Source: Streptomyces mirabilis | Lineage (GTDB): Bacteria; Actinomycetota; Actinomycetes; Streptomycetales; Streptomycetaceae | DNA: 64,000 bases | Assembly: GCF_039503195.1 (NCBI RefSeq) | Contig: NZ_JBCJKP010000001.1 | Span: 8,866,001-8,930,000 of the forward strand | Direction of reading: 5' to 3' | In this document: positions 2,586 to 12,272 of the stretch, in pieces | Position numbering within the stretch: position 1 is the stretch's first letter | Layout: each line of letters begins with the position of its first letter | Program-made: the position numbers and the translations under genes | The notes under the pieces: generated by a model | The model's input: the letters and a program-made list of their open reading frames with translations, nothing else | Told to the model about the DNA's origin: nothing | Databases searched by the model: none

Positions 2586-3158
2586 TCAACCACGCGTCCG
2601 CAGACCCGGGGGGAGGGTCTCCCCCTCCGTGACCGGTTCCGTCCGGCTCCCGGCGGTGTCGCCGATGGCGGTGTGCGCGGGCGGCCATGGCAGCAGGGCG
2701 ATCAGGGAGTGTGCCCGATGGATGAGGAAGGCGGCGAGCGGCAGTTCGGTGGCCAGGGCAAGGCCCCCCGCCATCCAGACGTCCTCAGTTCCGACATCGA
2801 GCGAGATGTCGAACCAGGTGTCGCAGATCAGCAGGACCGCTGTGGCATGCGCGTACAGAATGACCGAACGGCTGCGGCGCCAGGCCAGGAACGCCGTGGA
2901 CGCCAACGCCATGATGAGCAGCACGTCGAATCCGACCCAGGTCAGGCGCCACTCGTGCACGTGGTGGGACGACGGCAGCGTCAGACCCAGCATCACGGTC
3001 CACGGTATGAGACAGGCGGCGCACGTGGCGAGCAGCTCAGCGGTGTGCCTCCTGCGGCGGTCCGGCGCGAGGTCGCGGTGGCCGGTATGTTCCTTGGTCA
3101 CTTGCGGTCCGTCCTCGCGCACTTCCTCCGACACCGGCAGGTTTCCCGGATTCCACAT
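2586..3158 (-). CDS. Hypothetical four-helix membrane protein
   Basis: About 190 residues if begun at ATG 3158; other starts (GTG codons about 8 and 19 residues further in) are possible, the first of the two followed closely by GGAGGA-like sequence, so the start is uncertain. A charged N-terminus rich in Arg/His is followed by four hydrophobic segments: ELLATCAACLIPWTVMLGL, WVGFDVLLIMALASTAFLAW, SVILYAHATAVLLICDTWF and LALATELPLAAFLIHRAHSL. The pattern WRLTWVGFDVLLI... YAHATAVLLICDTWFD looks like a conserved actinobacterial membrane family, but I cannot name it. It is convergent with the nitroreductase (37 bp between stops) and is followed upstream, on the same strand, by the secreted peptide gene. 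Confidence 0.65.
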   Translation of the reverse strand: MWNPGNLPVSEEVREDGPQVTKEHTGHRDLAPDRRRRHTAELLATCAACLIPWTVMLGLTLPSSHHVHEWRLTWVGFDVLLIMALASTAFLAWRRSRSVILYAHATAVLLICDTWFDISLDVGTEDVWMAGGLALATELPLAAFLIHRAHSLIALLPWPPAHTAIGDTAGSRTEPVTEGETLPPGLRTRG

Positions 3159-3241: not shown

Positions 3242-3520
3242 CTACGGGCGTGCCAACCCGAACGTCTTCAGCTGCTCCCAGATCCACGGGTAGAAGCGGT
3301 CGTACGTGGAACAGTCCCAGACGTGTCCGCGATGTCCGTCGTGGTGCCCACCGACGGTTCCCCTCTCGGCCACCGCACCCGCTCGGGCGGGGACGCGTGC
3401 GTCGGCCGGAAGAGCAGCCGCGTTCGCGGAACCCTCGGCGACGAGGAGGGTGCCTCCGGCGAATGCCAGAGCGGCGGCGGTGGTCGCTATACGCCGTACT
3501 AGCTTGTTCTTGGTGCGCAA
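3242..3520 (-). CDS. Small secreted peptide with C-terminal YDRFYPWIWEQL motif (copy 1)
   Basis: 92 residues from a TTG start, placed by an AGGGAG ribosome site 8-9 bases upstream; an in-frame GTG three codons earlier overlaps that site. Residues 1-33 form a classic signal peptide: LVRR, then the hydrophobic stretch ATTAAALAFAGGTLLVA, ending SANAA. The mature part (about 60 residues) is Ala/Gly/His-rich (GGHHDGHRGHVWDC) and ends in CSTYDRFYPWIWEQL plus a short tail. A paralogue at 8243-8560 shares the same ending. Both genes have an ATCRC-N8-GYGAT dyad about 70 bases upstream of the start. I do not recognise a known family; the single Cys, the His run and the aromatic tail suggest an exported binding or signalling peptide, but that is inference. 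Confidence 0.65.
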   Translation of the reverse strand: MRTKNKLVRRIATTAAALAFAGGTLLVAEGSANAAALPADARVPARAGAVAERGTVGGHHDGHRGHVWDCSTYDRFYPWIWEQLKTFGLARP

Positions 3521-3594
3521 AAAAATCACTCCCTGGTTTCCGGAGAGCAGAAACTGCCAACACGGCCAGTTTCGATCAGGAAGGTGCGTAGTGC

Positions 3595-3612
3595 ATCGCA
3601 TGATCTGGTGAT
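3595..3612. promoter_or_regulatory. Operator candidate A, dyad ATCGC-N8-GTGAT
   Basis: ATCGC ATGATCTG GTGAT, 75 bp upstream of the secreted peptide start (minus strand). The same 18-bp pattern occurs at 3686, 7619, 8627 and 8810, each next to a copy or remnant of the same locus. Inferred to be a transcription-factor site. Confidence 0.55.
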
Positions 3613-3685
3613 TGACTGCTGCCCAGGTGGGGCCGTGCTGCAGGTATGTATTGTGGGCTTGAGGCGAGACTTGGTAGTCACATGA

Positions 3686-3703
3686 ATCGCTAGATTGTGC
3701 GAT
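3686..3703. promoter_or_regulatory. Operator candidate B, perfect dyad ATCGC-N8-GCGAT
   Basis: ATCGC TAGATTGT GCGAT between the divergent secreted peptide gene and the hydrolase gene. It is followed by CTCAGTTCCTTTCCG, which is also conserved after site E (8810), so the hydrolase promoter probably lies here. Confidence 0.55.
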
Positions 3704-3834
3704 GTTCTCAGTTCCTTTCCGGTCTACTCTGCCCAGAGAGCTGATATCGCTCGAGTTTTCTTGACTCGGCGGTCGTCTGCCGAAGAAAAGTGGCACACGA
3801 AACCAGATCGGGGTCGGGGGCGTGGAGGGCCGGG

Positions 3835-4622
3835 ATGTCCAGGCGCAGTAGCAAAATCGAGTTCGTAGGCTCGCTGGGCGTCCCGCTCGTGGCGCGCCTG
3901 GACCTGCCGGAGGGGCGCCTTGGGCGTACGCCGTATTCGCCCCCTGCTTCACATGCGGCAAGGACTGGTTGGCGGCCGCTCGGATCTGCCGGGAGTTGGC
4001 CGAACGCGGAATCGCGGTCCTCAGTGTGGACTTCACCGGCATCGGTGAGTCCGGGGGTGACTTCGCCGACAGTACATTCAGCTCCGATGTGGACGATCTC
4101 GTGCGCGCCGCCGACCACTTGCGTGAGAACTTCACGGCGCCGTCGCTCCTCATCGGGCATTCGCTGGGCGGCGCAGCCGTGCTGGCCGCCGCGCACCGGA
4201 TACCCGAGACGGCAGCGGTGGCCACGATCGGTGCGCCTGCGGAGCCGGAGCACGTCGTGCACACTTTCGGCGGCAGGCGGGAGGAGATCGAGCGGAACGG
4301 GGAGGCCGAGGTGAGTCTCGGAGGCCGCGTGTTCCACATCCGTCGGGAGTTCCTCGACGACATCTCCGCGCAGCCTCAGGCCGAGCGCATCCGCCGACTG
4401 CGTCACGCGCTCCTGGTGCTGCACTCGCCGATCGACGAGACGGTAGGTGTGGAGAACGCCCAGCAGATCCTCGACGCAGCACGGCACCCCAAGTCCTTTG
4501 TCGCGATCGACGGTGCCGACCATCTCCTCACCGATCGTGCCGACGCCCGCTATGTCGCGACGCTGCTGGCCGCATGGGCCGGCCGTTACGCGCGCGGTTC
4601 GGTCCAGGCCGGGCCGGCGTGA
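3835..4622 (+). pseudogene. Alpha/beta hydrolase (OsmC-fused-hydrolase type), one frameshift
   Basis: The N-terminus starts at ATG 3835 behind GGAGGG and reads KIEFVGSLGVPLVARLDLPEG. At about 3914-3918, in GAGGGGCGCC, one base is missing; the correct frame then gives PWAYAVFAPCFTCGKDW, AARICRELAERGIAVLSVDF, the oxyanion GIGESGGDF, the nucleophile elbow GHSLGG, and later DETV and ADHLL, which fit the catalytic Asp and His. The degenerate copy at 9122 keeps the extra base at the matching place (GAGGGGACGCC), supporting the deletion. A shorter protein of 217 residues could start from TTG 3969, but it would lack the first beta strands. Either a true pseudogene or a sequencing error; if intact it would be a cytoplasmic serine hydrolase of about 260 residues. 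It precedes the FMN protein by 106 bp on the same strand. Confidence 0.7.
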
Positions 4623-4728
4623 CGGAATTCGCATACCCCGAGCCGATAGGACTTCCGTGCGCCGAATGTGCCGTATATCGCATCATTCAGACATTGTGAC
4701 GCTACTGGGACAGGAGTAGGTTTCGCAC

Positions 4729-6312
4729 GTGATTAGAATTGCATCGATCGCATTTATTGGAGTCCTCGCAGTCGCAGTCGGATCCTTCGCGGCGACCGTG
4801 TCTCCCTGGTGGTGGCCAGCCGCCGTGCTGTGCGCGGCGTTGGCGGGCGTGGGTACCTACGATCTCCTCCAAAAGCGCCACTCGGTGCTGCGCAACTACC
4901 CTGTGCTGGGACATGTGCGCTTCATGCTGGAGTCGATCCGGCCGGAGTTGCAGCAGTATTTCATTGAGCGCAATTACGACGGCCGTCCCTACGACCGGGA
5001 TGTGCGCAGTCTCGTCTATCAGCGCGCCAAGGGCTTGGAAGCGGAGCAAGCATTCGGGACCGAACGGAACGTCTATGCCGAAGGCTACGAGTACTTCGAG
5101 TCGTCCATGAGGCCACGCCCGGCGCCGGCGGAGCAGCCGAGGGTCCGCATCGGTGGTCCGGACTGCACCAAGCCCTACGACATGGCCCTGTTCAATGTCT
5201 CGGCGATGAGTTTCGGCTCGCTGTCCGCCAACGCCATCCTCGCCCTGAACCAGGGCGCCGCCCTCGGGGGCTTCGCACACGACACGGGTGAGGGCGGCCT
5301 GTCGGAATACCATCTGCGGCACGGTGGCGACCTGGTGTGGGAGATCGGTACCGGATACTTCGGCTGCCGCACCGAGGACGGCCGTTTCGACCGGGCGCGG
5401 TTCGCGGAAAAGGCTGCTCACGACAGCGTGAAGTGCGTGTCGCTGAAGCTGTCCCAGGGAGCCAAACCCGGCATCGGAGGAGTGCTGCCCGGGGAGAAGG
5501 TCACCGCCGAGATAGCCCGGGTACGCGAAGTCCCCGAGGGGCGGACCGTCATCTCGCCCCCGTACCACGAGGTTTTCAGTACCCCACGGGAACTGATCCG
5601 GTTCATCGCCGAGATGCGCGAGCTGTCCGGGGGCAAGCCGGTCGGCTTCAAGTTCTGTGTGGGCTCCCGGCGTGAGTTCCTGGCGGTGTGCAAGGCCATG
5701 ATCGAGGAGGGCACCGCGCCCGATTTCATCATCGTCGACGGAGCGGAGGGCGGCACCGGAGCAGCCCCGCTGGAGTTCGCCGACCATCTGGGCAGCCCCC
5801 TCACCGAGGGCCTCATCACGGTCCACAACGCTCTGGTCGGCGCCGGCCTGCGGGACCGGATCAGGATCGGCGCCAGCGGCAAGGTGGCCACCGGAGCCGA
5901 CATCGTCAAGCGCATGGTGCAGGGCGCCGACTTCACCAATGCGGCTCGCGCCATGATGTTCGCGATCGGCTGCATCCAGGCGCAGAGCTGCCACACCAAC
6001 ACCTGCCCCGCCGGAGTCGCCACACAAGACCCGCGCCGCGCCCGCGCGTTGCACGTCGACGACAAGTCGGTCCGGGTCCAGCGCTTCCAGTCCGCCACCG
6101 TGAACAGCTCTCTGAAGATCATCGCCTCGCTGGGCGTGAACGGACCGGCCGAGCTGCGCCCGCACATGCTGCGTCGGCGCGTGGATCCGGTCACGGTCCG
6201 CTCCTACGCGGAGCTCTATGAATGGCTGGACCCGGGGCAGTTGCTGATCGAGCCGCCGGAGTCCTGGGCGGTGGACTGGAAGGCCGCCGATCCTGATCGT
6301 TTCGCCGCTTGA
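4729..6312 (+). CDS. Membrane-anchored FMN-binding glutamate synthase family protein
   Basis: 527 residues from GTG 4729. Residues 1-50 hold two hydrophobic segments (IASIAFIGVLAVAVGSFAA and WWWPAAVLCAALAGVGTY), so the protein is probably anchored with the catalytic domain in the cytoplasm. The rest is the glutamate-synthase central/FMN barrel: FNVSAMSFGSLSANAILALN, GYFGCRTEDGRFD, KLSQGAKPGIGG, IIVDGAEGGTGAAP, GASGKVATGADIVK. The 3Fe-4S type cysteines are present in CIQAQSCHTNTCPAGVATQDP. The glutaminase and NADPH parts of GltB/GltD are missing, as is normal for these stand-alone relatives, whose reaction is not established. It lies after the hydrolase, probably in one transcript. A C-terminal fragment of a paralogue remains on the minus strand at 7885-8165. 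Confidence 0.88.
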   Translation: MIRIASIAFIGVLAVAVGSFAATVSPWWWPAAVLCAALAGVGTYDLLQKRHSVLRNYPVLGHVRFMLESIRPELQQYFIERNYDGRPYDRDVRSLVYQRAKGLEAEQAFGTERNVYAEGYEYFESSMRPRPAPAEQPRVRIGGPDCTKPYDMALFNVSAMSFGSLSANAILALNQGAALGGFAHDTGEGGLSEYHLRHGGDLVWEIGTGYFGCRTEDGRFDRARFAEKAAHDSVKCVSLKLSQGAKPGIGGVLPGEKVTAEIARVREVPEGRTVISPPYHEVFSTPRELIRFIAEMRELSGGKPVGFKFCVGSRREFLAVCKAMIEEGTAPDFIIVDGAEGGTGAAPLEFADHLGSPLTEGLITVHNALVGAGLRDRIRIGASGKVATGADIVKRMVQGADFTNAARAMMFAIGCIQAQSCHTNTCPAGVATQDPRRARALHVDDKSVRVQRFQSATVNSSLKIIASLGVNGPAELRPHMLRRRVDPVTVRSYAELYEWLDPGQLLIEPPESWAVDWKAADPDRFAA

Positions 6313-6319
6313 CTGGTCT

Positions 6320-6997
6320 CGCCGCGGTGAGCGGGCGGGGTGCGCCATCGACGCCGGCACCCCGCCGCTCTTCGCCGTGCTCAAGTCGCAGCCCGTGCAC
6401 GGCCCGCGCATCGACCACGTCCTCGCCCAGGCCCCGTCCGAGGCATGGCAGCATCTGTCGGCGGGTGCGGGAGCCAAGGGCGAACGGTTCTACGACTGGG
6501 CAGCCGCACGCTTGCCCGCAGTGTGGGAGTTCGACGGCGACGAGCCGACCCGGCAGCAGCGGATGCTGGCCCGCCGCAGCATGAGCAAGCCCGACGAAAT
6601 CGCGTACTACCTCGCCTGCGCCCCGCTGGCGGCCACTGTCGTAGAAGTACGAGGTCCACGGCTACATGGGATGGTGCCGGCACATCACGCTCACCATGCT
6701 CGCCCACGCGTTCCTCACGGTGAGGGCCGTCCAGAAGTGAGAAAATGGGGTGACCCGGCCGACGCACCCGACCTCGTGGACCTCACACCAGCTGAAATCC
6801 GTCGTCTGCTGGCAGCTGAAGCCCGCCACCCTCCTGCATGCCGCGACCACGCGGTGAACTGGTCCCGGTGGCGGCGTCGCCACCAAGTACGCGCCCGCCG
6901 CTGTCGCCAGATGCGGCGCGGACACACGTTGGTGGGACAGCCCGTCCAAGACCGTCCCCCATGCCAAACCCTCGCTACGCTCCCCAGCTCTGACTGA
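6320..6997 (+). pseudogene. IS701-type transposase remnant
   Basis: Starts a few bases after the FMN protein stop with CAIDAGTPPLFAVLKSQPVH, then ERFYDWAAARLPAVWEFDGD and MSKPDEIAYYLACAPLAATV, followed after an internal deletion by DLVDLTPAEIRRLLAAEARH and WSRWRRRHQVRARRC. These are middle and C-terminal pieces of the DDE transposases of Streptomyces IS701-like elements. The N-terminus with its start codon is missing and the piece between the ACAPL and DLVDLT blocks is rearranged. No terminal repeats were found. It is a dead element that may have been involved in the duplication or rearrangement of the neighbouring locus. Confidence 0.7.
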
Positions 6998-7058
6998 CTC
7001 ACCGCTACTACACCATGCCCGGTTTGGCGCTGCCAGGCTGGGCCGTGGCGGACGACGT

Positions 7059-7358
7059 TCAGCGGGAATCCTCCGCGAGCTCAAATTTCCATTTGCCGAT
7101 GGAGTCACAGTGCAGGCACCGTATTTCGGTCCAAGCCTGGTCAAGAATGAGGTGCTTGGGTCGTCCACGTTCGGCGGGTGTCTCCGCCCGTTCGGCGGCG
7201 ATCCGCCGAGCCTGTTGCTGGTCCCTGGTGTTGTCGACCAGGTAGAAGCACCGAATTATACGATCGGGGGCAACGTGGTAGCGGAATCCGATCAACCAGA
7301 TGACGGTGTCAATCATTGTCGGCTCATCAGCTTCAACGAGGGGATGGGTGAATGGCAT
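7059..7358 (-). CDS. Hypothetical small protein with a CxxC pair
   Basis: 99 residues from ATG 7358, or about 85 from an internal ATG (MIDTVIWLIGFRYHVAPDRI). It is soluble-looking and contains the string TRDQQQARRIAAERAETPAE (helical, charged) and near the end IRCLHCDSIGKWKFEL, with one CxxC. Codon bias is weaker than in neighbouring genes and no convincing ribosome site precedes either start. I do not recognise the family. It sits between transposase debris and the decayed second copy of the peptide locus, so it may be a passenger or a remnant. Confidence 0.4.
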   Translation of the reverse strand: MPFTHPLVEADEPTMIDTVIWLIGFRYHVAPDRIIRCFYLVDNTRDQQQARRIAAERAETPAERGRPKHLILDQAWTEIRCLHCDSIGKWKFELAEDSR

Positions 7359-7884
7359 TTTATGTCAGTGATTCTCCTGGCCGACTGCCAGCCACGCTGA
7401 AAGCCAGGGCTCCAGTCTCTCTGTGAATGTTTGGCCTGGCTCGCACTTCGGAGAGTCGAGATCGGTGGTGGCGCACTCCGGGATGCGCGTGTGACAAGAC
7501 GAGGAAGGTTGGGACTCAGCTGGCGTAGAGCTCAGGGCACTGTCAATACCGCTCATCGTGCAAAACACCCCGGCTTCTATCAGGAACTAAATATCAACAC
7601 CATCAGTGTTCGCTGTGCATCGCATAATCTAGTGAGCGGTCCTTGCGCAGTCAGCACTCCTGGCGCGGAGCTCTTTGTGGGCATCGCGACAGATCTAATG
7701 ACGCAGGGTGATGCTCTCACTAATTAGTCGTCAAGTCCGTGTGCCGAGGGTAATCAAGTCGTGAGCTGGGCTTTCTCCGTGGTGTGCCGCGTCGAGTTCG
7801 CGGAGCACGCAGTAGGCGTGGATGAGGAGCTTGCGGCCTCACCGCAAGCTGGTGGCGCTCCTCCAGCCTCAATGACGGGGGCGA
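7359..7884. other. Long stretch without a supportable gene; holds one operator-like dyad
   Basis: A 67-residue minus frame (7365-7568) can be read but has no recognisable features. Its start is 51 bp from operator candidate C at 7619, the same arrangement as for the two secreted peptide genes, so it could be a decayed third gene. Local A+T is higher than average. Nothing else seen. Confidence 0.4.
7619..7636. promoter_or_regulatory. Operator candidate C, ATCGC-N8-GTGAG
   Basis: ATCGC ATAATCTA GTGAG. It is preceded by a stretch similar to that before site A (TATCAGGAA versus GATCAGGAA, then TGCATCGCA). One arm base deviates from the dyad. Confidence 0.4.
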
Positions 7885-8165
7885 GGTTCTGGCCACGATG
7901 AGACTCCCTCTCCTCCGCATGGGACTGGGCAGTGACCAGGTCTACACGCCGGCGCAGCGTGCGCTGGCACAATCAGCGGGTTCACATGCCGGCCGGCGAA
8001 GCGATGATCTTGCGCCGTGGCGGACTGGAAGCGGTGGACTCGAGCCGATGTTTCGCGGACGTTCGATGCGCTGGCGCGGCGCGGGTCCTTGGTGGCGAGG
8101 CCGACGGGGCAGGTGTTGGTGTGGCAGATATGCGCTGGATGCGTTCGACGGCGAGGGGTGGAGGG
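7885..8165 (-). pseudogene. C-terminal fragment of FMN glutamate-synthase-like protein
   Basis: Read on the minus strand with frame changes, the sequence gives ICHTNTCPVGLATKDPRRA, then VHRFQSAT and RRVDLVTAQSHAE. These line up with SCHTNTCPAGVATQDPRRA, VQRFQSAT and RRVDPVTVRSYAE of the protein at 4729-6312. Only about 90 codons of the C-terminal part survive, with several indels, and no start. It lies directly downstream of the second secreted peptide gene in the same orientation, unlike the first copy, where the FMN gene runs divergently from the peptide. This shows duplication followed by rearrangement. Confidence 0.75.
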
Positions 8166-8242
8166 CTGGGCGGCTTTTGGCGCTGCCGGTTGCTCGGGCT
8201 GTGATGCTGGGGCGGGGAGTTCGCGTTGACGGACACCCCGGG

Positions 8243-8560
8243 TCAGTTGACGTGTCCGAGCTCCGTGAGCTGGTCCCAGACCCAGGGGTAGAAGCGGTCG
8301 AAGCGGTCGTAGGCGCAGCGGCCGCAGTGCCCGTCCGAGGGCTTCCCGTGGTGGCGGTAGCCCTCACTCCTGACTCCGCCGTACCCGCCGTGGTTCCAGG
8401 CGGTGGCTCCCGTCCCCGCAACCACCCCTGATTGGGCGGGGGTGGGCGTGTCCGCCGTAAAAGCGGCCGCACTCGCGGAACCGCCGGCAGTGAATAGAGC
8501 ACCTGTGGCGACTGCAAGAGAGGCAGTCGCGATCCCGATGCGATGTGCGAGCTTTCCCAT
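8243..8560 (-). CDS. Small secreted peptide with C-terminal DRFYPWVWDQL motif (copy 2)
   Basis: 105 residues from ATG 8560, with AAGGAG 9 bases upstream. Residues 1-32 are a signal peptide (KLAHR, hydrophobic core IATASLAVATGALFTAGG, cleavage near SASAAA). The mature chain has a Pro/Thr/Gly-rich part, a His/Gly/Tyr segment (WNHGGYGG, GYRHHGK), two Cys in GHCGRCAYDRFDRFYPW and the ending VWDQLTELGHVN. The motif matches copy 1 at 3242-3520 (YDRFYPWIWEQL). Operator candidate D lies 67 bp before the start. No known family recognised. The better preserved start and ribosome site suggest this copy is expressed even though its neighbouring hydrolase and FMN genes are broken. Confidence 0.7.
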   Translation of the reverse strand: MGKLAHRIGIATASLAVATGALFTAGGSASAAAFTADTPTPAQSGVVAGTGATAWNHGGYGGVRSEGYRHHGKPSDGHCGRCAYDRFDRFYPWVWDQLTELGHVN

Positions 8561-8626
8561 AGTCGTTTCTCCTTGTCTTATCGATCGCTAACAGGAATCA
8601 CTATGGATCGGAAAAGGGCGGGGGGC

Positions 8627-8644
8627 ATCGCACGATCGAGTGAT
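8627..8644. promoter_or_regulatory. Operator candidate D, ATCGC-N8-GTGAT
   Basis: ATCGC ACGATCGA GTGAT, 67 bp upstream of the copy-2 secreted peptide start, matching the position of site A before copy 1. Confidence 0.55.
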
Positions 8645-8809
8645 TGGTCGGCGTATGACCCGCCATCCTTCTTCGAGGCGTCCCTTTCGGGCTTGACCGC
8701 AGAAAGATCGACTCAGGGCGATCTCTGTGTGCGCCGTCGAGTATCTCGTCGCCATCGCACGGTCACCAGTAAAGAGTTACTCGCGACAGGGGAGGGAATG
8801 GTCGGACCG

Positions 8810-8827
8810 ATCACCAGATCATGTGAT
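8810..8827. promoter_or_regulatory. Operator candidate E, perfect dyad ATCAC-N8-GTGAT
   Basis: ATCAC CAGATCAT GTGAT. Followed by CTCAGTTCCTTGCCG, the same block that follows site B, and lying on the side of the hydrolase pseudogene. Confidence 0.55.
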
Positions 8828-9026
8828 GCGCCTCAGTTCCTTGCCGTGCCATTCTGACCAGGCAGAAAACCAGTAGCCACGTTCCCCTCGCCCGCGCGGA
8901 TGTCTGGTGTGTCCGGCAGCTCTTGCGGGCCTGCAGCGCGGGCGACGGCCAGCTCGCTGTCCGGGCCGTCAAGGACTTCGAGTCGCCGGTAGGAACCGAG
9001 CCCTCCGCACGAATGAACGGCTGCAG

Positions 9027-9122
9027 ATGAGCGATCAGACGAAAGTGATGGTCCTGGGAGTGATCGCACTCGTCCTCGGTGTCAGCCTTGTTCTCGTACT
9101 GCAGCATGCCTGCACGCACTGA
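9027..9122 (+). CDS. Possible 31-residue single-span membrane peptide
   Basis: The frame reads MSDQTKVMVLGVIALVLGVS and ends LVLVLQHACTH: a short polar head, one strong transmembrane helix and a Cys/His tail. It ends exactly where the hydrolase remnant begins and has no strong ribosome site. It could be a genuine small membrane peptide or a chance frame; the hydrophobic run is the only support. Confidence 0.3.
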   Translation: MSDQTKVMVLGVIALVLGVSLVLVLQHACTH

Positions 9123-9410
9123 TGGACAGCGCTCCCGAGGCTCGCCTGGGCCTTCCTGAGGGGACGCCTTGGGCGTACGCCGTATTCGCCCCTGCTTTTT
9201 ACGTGCGGCAGGGACTGTTTGGCGGCCGCCCGGATCCGCCGGGAGCTGGCCGGACACGGAATCGCGGTCCTCAATGCGAATCTCGCCGGCACCGGGGAGC
9301 CCGGGGCGACTTCGCCGGCAGCAGGTTCAGCTCCGACGATCTCGTGCGCGCCGTCGACCACGTGCGTGAGCACTTCGCGGCACCGTCGATTGTCGTGCGT
9401 CCCGCCACCC
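9122..9410 (+). pseudogene. Degenerate second copy of the alpha/beta hydrolase
   Basis: Starts ATG 9122 and reads RLGLPEGTPWAYAVFAPAF, then shifts frame to AARIRRELAGHGIAVLNAN and again after LAGTGE, ending around FAAPSIVV, just before the place where the GHSLGG nucleophile motif would be. Base-level similarity to 3895-4160 is high (for example CGCCTTGGGCGTACGCCGTA is identical). It has at least two indels and lacks the catalytic part, so it is a dead copy. Confidence 0.75.
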
Positions 9411-10668: not shown

Positions 10669-12078
10669 TCACGGTCCCTGTCTCGCGTGTCCGAGAGCGA
10701 GGGGGTGAGCGCCCGCGCGGACTGATGTGCCGTTGCGCCGGTCGTGCAGGGTGAAGTCGGCCCGGACGGCCACACCGGACTGCAGCAGCTTCTGGTGGAT
10801 CAGGGGGTCTCGGCCGGGGTGCGAGGCGACGACGCTGATGTATCCCTCGGGCAGTCCGGTCACGGCGTACTCGCCGCGCGCGTTCGTCGTGGTCCGCACC
10901 AGCTGGCGGCCGCCGGGGTCCATGACGGTCACCGCGGCATGTCGGATCGGCTGCAGTTCAGCGTCGCTGACAGTGCCCTCCAGCATCGGCAACAGCTCGC
11001 CGAAGTGATGCGGGTGGACCGGAAGCGCGGTAGGCGCGGGCACCTCCACGGAGGGGTCCTCCACCGGCGGTTCCGGAATGTCGCCCTGCTCGTCCTCCCC
11101 TCCTCGTCGTGCGGCCATGCGGTGGTGTCGCCACGCGTCAAGGCCCAGCAGCGCCACACCCGCCGCGATCCACGCGCACAGCACGAGGACCGGCTTCAGC
11201 ACCCCGACACCGTCGAAGTACAGGACTCCTCTCAGGGCGTCGACCGCGTTGCCCAGCGGCATGACGGCGTGCAGGGCTTGGAAGAACCCCGGCAGCAGCT
11301 GCACGGGGACCAGGCCGCTGGAGGGAACGCTCAGCACGATGTACAGGCCCAGACCCGCCAGGGGGAAGAAGTGTTTGACGAAGGGCGCCATGCCGAGGGA
11401 GAACGTGGCCACGGCCGCGGTGAGCAGGAAGGCGATCGCCAGGGCCGCGGGGTCGTTGGGGAAGAGCCCCAGTCCCGTGCCGACGAGGAAACCCACGGCG
11501 CTGAAGAGGCCGGCGACGCCCGCTATCGTGATCAGCTTCTTGCGCCGGTTGAAGGTCACCGCCCGCAGCAGGGTCGTGGCGAGTATATAGCCGGGGACGT
11601 TCCAGGCGATCCCGAAATAGACCAGGGTCGCGCCGGATCCGTCCTTGCTGACCGTGGGGGCTACGTCCGTGACGGTGAGCTTCTGGTGGTTGTGCGCCGC
11701 AAGCTGGGTGAAGCCCTTGGTCAGCGCCTGCTCGAGGGACGCGCCGTTGGCCTTGGCCACGTAGAGCACGGCATGTCTGCCCGTGGCGGCGAAGCCTGCC
11801 GCGGCGTCCCGGTCCAGCACCGCCCGGCGGGCTGCCCGGGCGTCCGGGACGGCGGTGACGTCGAACCCGCCGGGATGCTGCCGCTGCAGTGCGGTCTCGA
11901 CCCTGTATTGCACCGTGGGATCGGCGATCACGAGCTTGGCGTGGTGGGGCTGAGGCTGGTGGAAGGCCATGGGGAAGCTGAACAGCAGGCCGAGGAAGAG
12001 CACTGCCGGGATCGTGAGGGTCTCGACGAGGACTCTGGCCACGGATATGCCCCGGGGACGCGCGATCCGGTGTTTCAC
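10669..12078 (-). CDS. ABC-2/DUF3533-like membrane protein with C-terminal carboxypeptidase-regulatory-like domain
   Basis: 469 residues from GTG 12078 (KHRIARPRG). One transmembrane helix near the N-terminus (VETLTIPAVLFLGLLFSF) is followed by an extracellular domain of about 140 residues, then five hydrophobic segments (VPGYILATTLLRA, IAGVAGLFSAVGFLVGTGLG, ALAIAFLLTAAVATFSLGMA, LAGLGLYIVLSVPSSG, VLVLCAWIAAGVALLGL). This is the layout of ABC-2-type permeases and DUF3533/YhgE-like proteins. The C-terminal 100 residues (EGTVSDAELQPIRHAAVTVM, TTTNARGEYAVTGLPEG) form a CarboxypepD_reg-like beta sandwich, an uncommon addition that would lie on the cytoplasmic or wall side depending on topology. 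A divergent TetR gene with two dyads suggests repression. Confidence 0.75.
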   Translation of the reverse strand: MKHRIARPRGISVARVLVETLTIPAVLFLGLLFSFPMAFHQPQPHHAKLVIADPTVQYRVETALQRQHPGGFDVTAVPDARAARRAVLDRDAAAGFAATGRHAVLYVAKANGASLEQALTKGFTQLAAHNHQKLTVTDVAPTVSKDGSGATLVYFGIAWNVPGYILATTLLRAVTFNRRKKLITIAGVAGLFSAVGFLVGTGLGLFPNDPAALAIAFLLTAAVATFSLGMAPFVKHFFPLAGLGLYIVLSVPSSGLVPVQLLPGFFQALHAVMPLGNAVDALRGVLYFDGVGVLKPVLVLCAWIAAGVALLGLDAWRHHRMAARRGGEDEQGDIPEPPVEDPSVEVPAPTALPVHPHHFGELLPMLEGTVSDAELQPIRHAAVTVMDPGGRQLVRTTTNARGEYAVTGLPEGYISVVASHPGRDPLIHQKLLQSGVAVRADFTLHDRRNGTSVRAGAHPLALGHARQGP

Positions 12079-12272
12079 AGGACCACCCCCTGGCCGCCAC
12101 GGCGGGCCATGCCGCAGAGACCGCGGCACACTCGGCCGACCGGATCCCCGGTCACCACTTGGCCGCCTCTCCGGTACCGGTGGTCCCCCGCTGTTCGCGA
12201 GCCAACCAGTTTCACGGCGCCTCCCTCGGCTGTGCCGCGCCTGACCGTCGCCATGGCGCCATCTCGATTAAC

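Follow-up and report, generated by a model that had tools for sequence, protein, structure and literature searches.

A candidate Streptomyces stress regulon that joins exported peptides to a hydrolase and an FMN glutamate-synthase-like protein

The 64-kb stretch of Streptomyces mirabilis DNA analysed here (the window; main contig, positions 8,866,001-8,930,000; genome size 11.1 Mb) contains two genes for small exported peptides, one adjoining genes for an alpha/beta hydrolase and a flavin mononucleotide (FMN) glutamate-synthase-like protein, and the other lying beside decayed copies of the same two enzyme genes. A single operator cassette is found before both peptides, before the hydrolase and its remnant, before the hydrolase and FMN orthologues of a second genome (G370), and twice near an extracytoplasmic function (ECF)-like sigma-factor gene. 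These data point to a real regulatory unit, give moderate support to a mechanism at the level of the regulon, and support a link between peptide and enzymes that is real, not general. Judged from their sequences, the peptides constitute a previously undescribed Streptomyces family with C-terminal 11-residue repeats. The genes in question are as follows.

3242-3520, minus strand: peptide 1; TTG start, Sec-type leader, linker and the tail YDRFYPWIWEQLKTFG; GGGAG ribosome site identified by eye
3835-3912, plus strand: hydrolase copy 1, 5' piece; ATG at 3835, in a different frame from the remainder, with the break near 3912
3969-4622, plus strand: hydrolase copy 1, main piece; alpha/beta hydrolase with a GHSLGG nucleophile elbow (Pfam Hydrolase_4, 5e-16)
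4729-6312, plus strand: intact FMN glutamate-synthase-like protein of 527 aa with a hydrophobic N terminus (PF01645, 1.5e-84)
About 7913-8154, minus strand: second FMN gene, a remnant; 78.7% nucleotide identity to the G370 FMN gene and 73.7% over 243 bp to the window FMN gene
8243-8560, minus strand: peptide 2; ATG start, Sec-type leader, linker and the tail DRFDRFYPWVWDQL; AAGGAG ribosome site identified by eye
About 9136-9388, plus strand: hydrolase copy 2, a remnant (families D1, D5, D9 and D13); 83.1% nucleotide identity over 261 bp to copy 1

A shared operator

The repeat described in the first-pass annotation was refined to ATCACYMGATYRTGCGATG, which is near-palindromic around GATC. The window contains five sites, each with no more than one mismatch, whereas 100 shuffled sequences gave no site even with two mismatches allowed, bearing out the earlier proposal of a shared operator. 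The sites, together with a degenerate sixth, are listed below.

3594-3612, minus strand: operator directed toward peptide 1; no mismatches
3686-3704, plus strand: operator directed toward hydrolase copy 1; one mismatch; downstream promoter context common with the G370 hydrolase
7618-7636, minus strand: operator with no clear gene behind it; one mismatch
8626-8644, minus strand: operator directed toward peptide 2; no mismatches
8810-8828, plus strand: operator directed toward the hydrolase remnant; one mismatch; context common with hydrolase copy 1
4675-4694, minus strand: degenerate site resembling the operator, some 50 bp ahead of the FMN gene and in the opposite orientation to the other gene-proximal sites

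Among 34 other genomes scanned (11 plus 23), exact copies of the operator were found in G370 only. One precedes the FMN orthologue (88.6% identical), whose start is about 410 bp away; the other stands ahead of a hydrolase gene orthologous to that of the window (84-87% in two pieces). As the two are on different contigs, the FMN gene is tied to the hydrolase independently of proximity; by themselves the G370 operators give no tie to peptides in other species. The approximately 30 bp that follow the operator (CTCAG ... ACTCTG) recur, with small departures, at hydrolase copy 1, at its remnant, at the G370 hydrolase and FMN genes and at one of the sites near 9.33 Mb in the S. mirabilis genome. Sites with two mismatches number three in the 11 genomes (G237, G146 and G117) and nine in the 23. 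The G146 site is upstream of an FMN gene, and none of those in G237, G117, G130 and G055, nor one of the two in G294, is beside the genes considered here. The palindromic operator is thus present upstream of orthologues as exact sites in G370 and, weakly, in G146.

The degenerate site before the window FMN gene scored 13.8 with a position weight matrix (PWM), just above the 99% null value of 13.0 from 1,500 random stretches, and the FMN orthologues of G146 and G370 are preceded by sites that agree with it in offset and strand. The matrix took in the exact G146 and G370 sites, not the window FMN site, and the score of the G146 site is therefore circular; the G370 site at this offset scores 9.6, above the 95% null value only. 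In the S. mirabilis genome the palindromic form, with up to three mismatches, matches 38 places compared with nine in the control. These include all five window sites and a pair at 9.329 Mb; as other places match as well, three of them with only two mismatches, the palindromic form gives no sharp separation of the set. The pair (L082 9232-11307, at 9.329-9.331 Mb) consists of one operator before a sigma-70-type (ECF-like) gene and a second before a short, decayed remnant that by eye is nitroreductase-like.

The exported peptide family

Both peptides proposed earlier are open frames with Sec-type leaders. They are 45-47% identical and have in common DRFYPW[IV]W[DE]QL, so the core of the tail described in the first-pass annotation stands. 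Its leading Tyr is confined to peptide 1 (YDRFYPW), as peptide 2 reads CAYDRF-DRFYPW at this position. When used as the sole query, peptide 2 retrieved matches at E<=1e-3 in 11 of 295 Streptomyces genomes, its own included, and nine of the 14 matches outside the window lacked such a tail. A six-peptide profile including both window peptides gave matches in 62 of 392 Streptomyces genomes, many covering the leader only. The motif-bearing matches align as a single family of 24 members comprising a leader, a variable linker and a C-terminal 11-residue unit, DPW[VI]xxQLAxF, in one to three copies. In the alignment (A3) the Sec-type leader ends in AxA, with invariant columns A29, A31 and A32, and the linker is not conserved; the window peptides agree with the family in these respects and in the C-terminal PW[IV]xxQL, and peptide 1 is matched by profile A2, which was built with peptide 1 included, at E 1.8e-26. 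The last Trp is 13 and 12 residues from the C-terminal end in the window peptides, within the 12 to 21 found across the family. At least two motifs occur in 22 of the 24 aligned members, spaced by 11 or 22 residues in 20 of these (the exceptions are 20 and 21), and length differences are mostly unit-sized within the repeat part; each window peptide has a single unit, fewer than the two or more typical of its relatives.

After the leader, the aligned members contain two to three Trp, two to ten His, zero to three Met and zero to two Cys each, with Cys lacking in 12 of the 24; neither His nor Cys forms a column of the alignment that is invariant or nearly so. The mature window peptides have one to two Cys and no Met. 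The ratio of nonsynonymous to synonymous substitution rates (dN/dS) ranges from 0.37 to 0.98 in ten of the 11 peptide pairs compared and exceeds 1 in the other, at 1.08, indicating that constraint is mild; it is about 1 in the G370/G388 peptides and in the pair L243/L247. AlphaFold2 gave a mean predicted local distance difference test (pLDDT) score of 48 for both window peptides, with low-confidence helix in the leader and at residues 79-100 only; in peptide 2 the helix, also of low confidence, is at 92-100. An amphipathic helix was rejected for the repeat, as the hydrophobic moments of 47 units were not above those of shuffles (mean p 0.59) and a single unit, that of window peptide 2, reached p<=0.1.

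Searches of Pfam and NCBIfam with the 24 members returned no convincing model (best E 0.029 and 0.0079, respectively), and no description of a WxxDQL peptide family was found in the open-licence PubMed Central (PMC) literature. In a class-wide sample of 197 genomes, some of them Streptomyces, none of the 11 non-Streptomyces matches to profile A3 was a member: ten lack the tail in frame, and the eleventh, WVADQL in a 260-codon frame with no export leader, looks unrelated. The homologue search suggested earlier for the DRFYPW tail found a family, in Streptomyces only in these data, and showed the exact tail to be nearly private to this genome. The exact extended DRFYPW pattern was present among the 392 Streptomyces genomes in S. 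mirabilis alone; at up to two mismatches it was met in 17, and the sole related one among the matches read is a decayed tail in G117. The idea that DRFYPW is a widespread motif was discarded, as the 34 matches in GTDB contigs, in a search from which records very near the window's genome may be missing, include none titled as an actinobacterium (one is an 'uncultured bacterium') and look like chance.

The family member on a plasmid of Streptomyces sp. SAT1 is annotated as 'hypothetical protein' and adjoins a MarR gene and a major facilitator superfamily (MFS) transporter. Peptides L243 and L247, from the S. mirabilis genome and G161, contain three near-identical repeats ending ARWYEDQV, a variant of the WxxDQ tail. 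One peptide subfamily is marked by an upstream element, TAGTTYATTGTTCAACTA, whose 9-mer TTGTTCAAC is present in 10 of 35 upstream regions, with near forms in a few more. The element AGTTYATTGTTCAACTA...TGCGTAGCTT, with small departures, was observed in L023, L027, L031, L034, L219, L220, L221, L223, L224, L225 and L235, upstream of the peptide start by about 100 bp, or by 64 bp in L225; it resembles a repressor site that overlaps a promoter, and it differs from the window operator. As a candidate for the window operator TAGTTYATTGTTCAACTA was ruled out, the S. mirabilis genome having one match, at three mismatches. It was also absent before 24 clade-B FMN genes, where the best matches had six to nine mismatches in a scan whose null sample included some peptide stretches.

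The two enzymes

The FMN gene adjoining peptide 1 encodes, as predicted, an intact PF01645 protein. Its Pfam matches are Glu_synthase and a weak FMN_dh, with no match to the N-terminal glutamine amidotransferase domain, and among solved structures its relatives are glutamate synthase large chains. At residue 415 it has a C-x5-C-x4-C motif, which we take to be the 3Fe-4S cysteine motif of the glutamate synthase large subunit. The protein thus has in common with GltB the FMN/synthase domain and this motif, but differs from it in comprising, in 527 aa with a hydrophobic N terminus, the synthase region only; glutamate synthesis is putative. In 11 open-licence PMC papers 'FMN-binding glutamate synthase' was found as a phrase in the text, and in no title or abstract.

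An alpha/beta hydrolase does adjoin peptide 1, as proposed earlier; it is not intact, because of the frame break near 3912, where both the second copy and the G370 orthologue stay in one frame. The window enzyme is about 45% identical to a second G370 hydrolase, the one paired with an FMN gene beside a peptide, residues 31-281 (of 290) of which match the alpha/beta domain of the OsmC-family proteins 9wo1 and 5cml, its best solved relatives. The window copy has the same alpha/beta domain as the bifunctional OsmC-family hydrolases but lacks their C-terminal OsmC domain, which was not among its Pfam matches, and its frame is broken.

Co-location in other genomes

Co-location was assessed for 39 motif peptides in 37 stretches, drawn from 54 fetched stretches (the ends of L217 are approximate) and the window; 18 lacking the Trp-Gln motif were left out (L025, L026, L028-L030, L032, L033, L035, L036, L237-L240, L244, L248, L249, L251 and L252). 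The FMN gene and the hydrolase both lie within 5 kb in five of the 37 stretches, which hold seven peptides: the window, G130, G142, G370 and G388. Clustering of all 55 stretches within 9 kb returned FMN and hydrolase clusters containing the same five stretches only. By similarity and gene order we count three independent arrangements, namely the window, G130 with G142, and G370 with G388. In the four other genomes the FMN protein belongs to a distinct lineage (about 42% identical to that of the window) and is followed by the hydrolase, with the peptide upstream in the same direction; G130 carries a further peptide gene, on the far side. The window has the other FMN lineage in the order hydrolase-FMN. 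About 0.02 FMN neighbours would be expected by chance within 5 kb of the 36 non-window stretches, by rough arithmetic from the FMN matches found in 107 of 295 genomes, a calculation that ignores clustering in the chromosome arms, which would raise the figure; four were observed, in two independent arrangements. The link inferred originally from repeated proximity has thus gained co-location in four other genomes and, in G370, an operator before the orthologues of both enzymes, and it is not general.

Locus history and neighbourhood

The decayed enzyme copies reported beside peptide 2 are present as the remnants of the hydrolase and the FMN gene. The duplicated locus described earlier is not a single copied block: in nucleotide identity the FMN remnant is nearer to the G370 gene (78.7%) than to that of the window (73.7%), indicating that it is not a simple recent duplicate. 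The placement also differs: the remnant is downstream of peptide 2 on the minus strand, and the intact FMN gene is beyond the hydrolase on the plus strand. The gene set is partly decayed in this strain and decaying in its lineage. The closest named relatives of the locus genes are on Streptomyces plasmids.

2589-3158, minus strand: membrane-protein gene (by eye) adjoining peptide 1; conserved, and a synteny anchor in G117 and G240

This gene, which has no Pfam match, is 87% and 94% identical to its counterparts in G117 and G240. Between the FMN gene and peptide 2 are two open reading frames lacking Pfam matches, 7059-7358 (minus) and 6377-6997 (plus), the latter of which we presume to be a transposase remnant. 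Positions 10669-12129 (minus) encode a membrane-like protein with a DUF3533-like part, under the family cut-off, and a C-terminal carboxypeptidase-regulatory-like domain; a relative adjoins the same locus in G117 and G240.

Neighbouring genes were compared for 34 peptides, related stretches being counted separately, by calling genes of 90-700 aa with a G+C heuristic and contrasting those within 1.8 kb (near, 112 genes) with those at 5.5-9 kb (far, 112 sampled of 128). TetR_N domains were found in nine near and two far genes, and the Glu_synthase matches among the near genes, four in number, are those of the co-location count. In 11 stretches (L028, L031, L035, L214, L226, L238, L239, L240, L241, L244 and L245), small secreted peptides, whether or not they carry the motif, have a member of a family of proteins of about 140 aa within approximately 0.1-2.2 kb; this family is taken from Pfam to be SsgA (four of the 112 near genes). 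In the one Citrobacter plasmid examined, of 672 matching plasmid records, a relative of the hydrolase (44%) is near msrA, msrB, an alcohol dehydrogenase and a MarR gene. A review (PMC7464077) describes hypochlorite as raising OsmC-like genes, among others, in biofilms.

Discussion

We tentatively favour, at a little below even likelihood, a small and probably repressor-controlled Streptomyces stress or detoxification regulon that also exports a peptide; the stress signal, the regulator and the activity of the peptide are what we infer. A dimeric repressor of the TetR or MarR type would occupy the 18-bp near-palindrome and would be displaced by an oxidant or toxic small molecule. The two enzymes, an OsmC-type hydrolase and an FMN/Fe-S protein anchored in the membrane, would then work in the cell or at the membrane. 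The peptide, exported by Sec, would act at the envelope or beyond it, with the C-terminal WxxDQL module as its working part, most likely by binding a partner or surface. A more specific version, in which the WxxDQL unit serves detoxification regulons as a dedicated extracellular module, placed under the operator with both enzymes and either set free as short signals or itself the partner that binds the stressor at the cell surface, is in our judgement improbable.

Several observations weigh against a peptide-exporting stress regulon. The first-pass annotation held that the link would fail if homologues of the peptide were mostly found away from the two enzymes, and in raw numbers they are: 32 of the 37 peptide stretches lack the pair within 5 kb. 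The enzyme pair occurs with no motif peptide in 10 of 20 further stretches, in the reverse order to the window, in a survey whose motif pattern was imperfect, missing window peptide 1 because of a long open frame. For the FMN lineage of the window, a hydrolase is nearby in none of 17 other stretches, two of them from the same genome. The G370 and G388 peptides beside the pair carry a different upstream element, which was not found before the FMN genes there. Of 25 distinct window-lineage FMN genes (duplicates removed by hand), three are preceded by operator-like sites, the other 22 scoring at most 5.0, and the site of the window FMN gene itself is weak and reversed. The frame of the window hydrolase is broken, and its G370 orthologue is also damaged, an internal loss removing the nucleophile region. 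The TetR excess is small, MarR shows the opposite trend (four of 112 far genes and, as it is absent from the 25 near families listed, at most two near), and NmrA (4 vs 3) and Epimerase (5 vs 5) display no real difference between near and far genes. No regulator was identified adjacent to the operators, nor was an inducer, and a stress or detoxification role, drawn from the gene families, is a best guess. Finally, in G117 the permease-like and membrane genes on the two flanks remain, with a decayed peptide tail alone between them, and in G240 a permease-like gene and a truncated short-chain dehydrogenase/reductase (SDR) gene directly precede the membrane gene, the interval being lost. This tail and this loss suggest that such a peptide was probably present before the lineages of G117 and S. 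mirabilis separated, and that the interval between the flanking genes has been lost at least twice.

A rival explanation is a neighbourhood effect only: fast-evolving secreted-peptide genes and accessory stress genes would both gather in the variable arms of the chromosome, with the operator there for the enzymes and the peptides as passengers that took nearby promoters. The 32 stretches lacking the pair, the diverse neighbours of the family, the deletion or decay of the region in G117 and G240, and a dN/dS of about 1 in the G370/G388 peptides and L243/L247 are all consistent with it. We nevertheless regard such an effect as rather unlikely, given the exact and correctly oriented operators at both peptides, and the four FMN neighbours, in two independent arrangements, where about 0.02 are expected when arm clustering is ignored.

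Other explanations concern the peptide itself. The 11-residue units might be cut from an exported precursor, as in multi-copy pheromone precursors; a spacing that is a multiple of 11 in 20 of the 22 peptides with at least two motifs, the unit-sized length differences and the C-terminal position of one to three repeats fit such a signal. The absence of a conserved cleavage signal between units and of a receptor or dedicated protease as a recurrent neighbour, together with the single unit of the window peptides, makes it very unlikely. A methionine-rich peptide that scavenges hypochlorite and is encoded with a methionine sulfoxide reductase was reportedly described by Melnyk et al. in 2015. That system likewise combines a small exported peptide with redox genes, and a sacrificial oxidant scavenger at the cell surface, akin to this methionine-rich periplasmic peptide, would suit the stress-type partner genes and the Trp (2-3) and His (2-10) content. 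With zero Met after the leader in the window pair and zero to three across the family, and with no methionine sulfoxide reductase among the near-neighbour families listed or reductase pair noticed, such a role is less probable again. Least probable, and by our estimate remote, is the metal-binding peptide of the first-pass annotation: His-rich linkers and the one to two Cys of the window pair speak for it, but Cys is lacking from half the mature members (the range being zero to two per peptide) and no His or Cys column is invariant or nearly so. Chaplins and the SapB precursor are other small secreted Streptomyces proteins, likewise exported and centred on this genus; none of the 24 members convincingly matches Pfam or NCBIfam models, and no search was made by name.

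If the stress regulon holds, Streptomyces would meet some stress with intracellular enzymes together with an exported repeat peptide, and stand-alone FMN glutamate-synthase-like proteins would gain a functional context. The operator provides a direct handle for finding the regulator and the signal.

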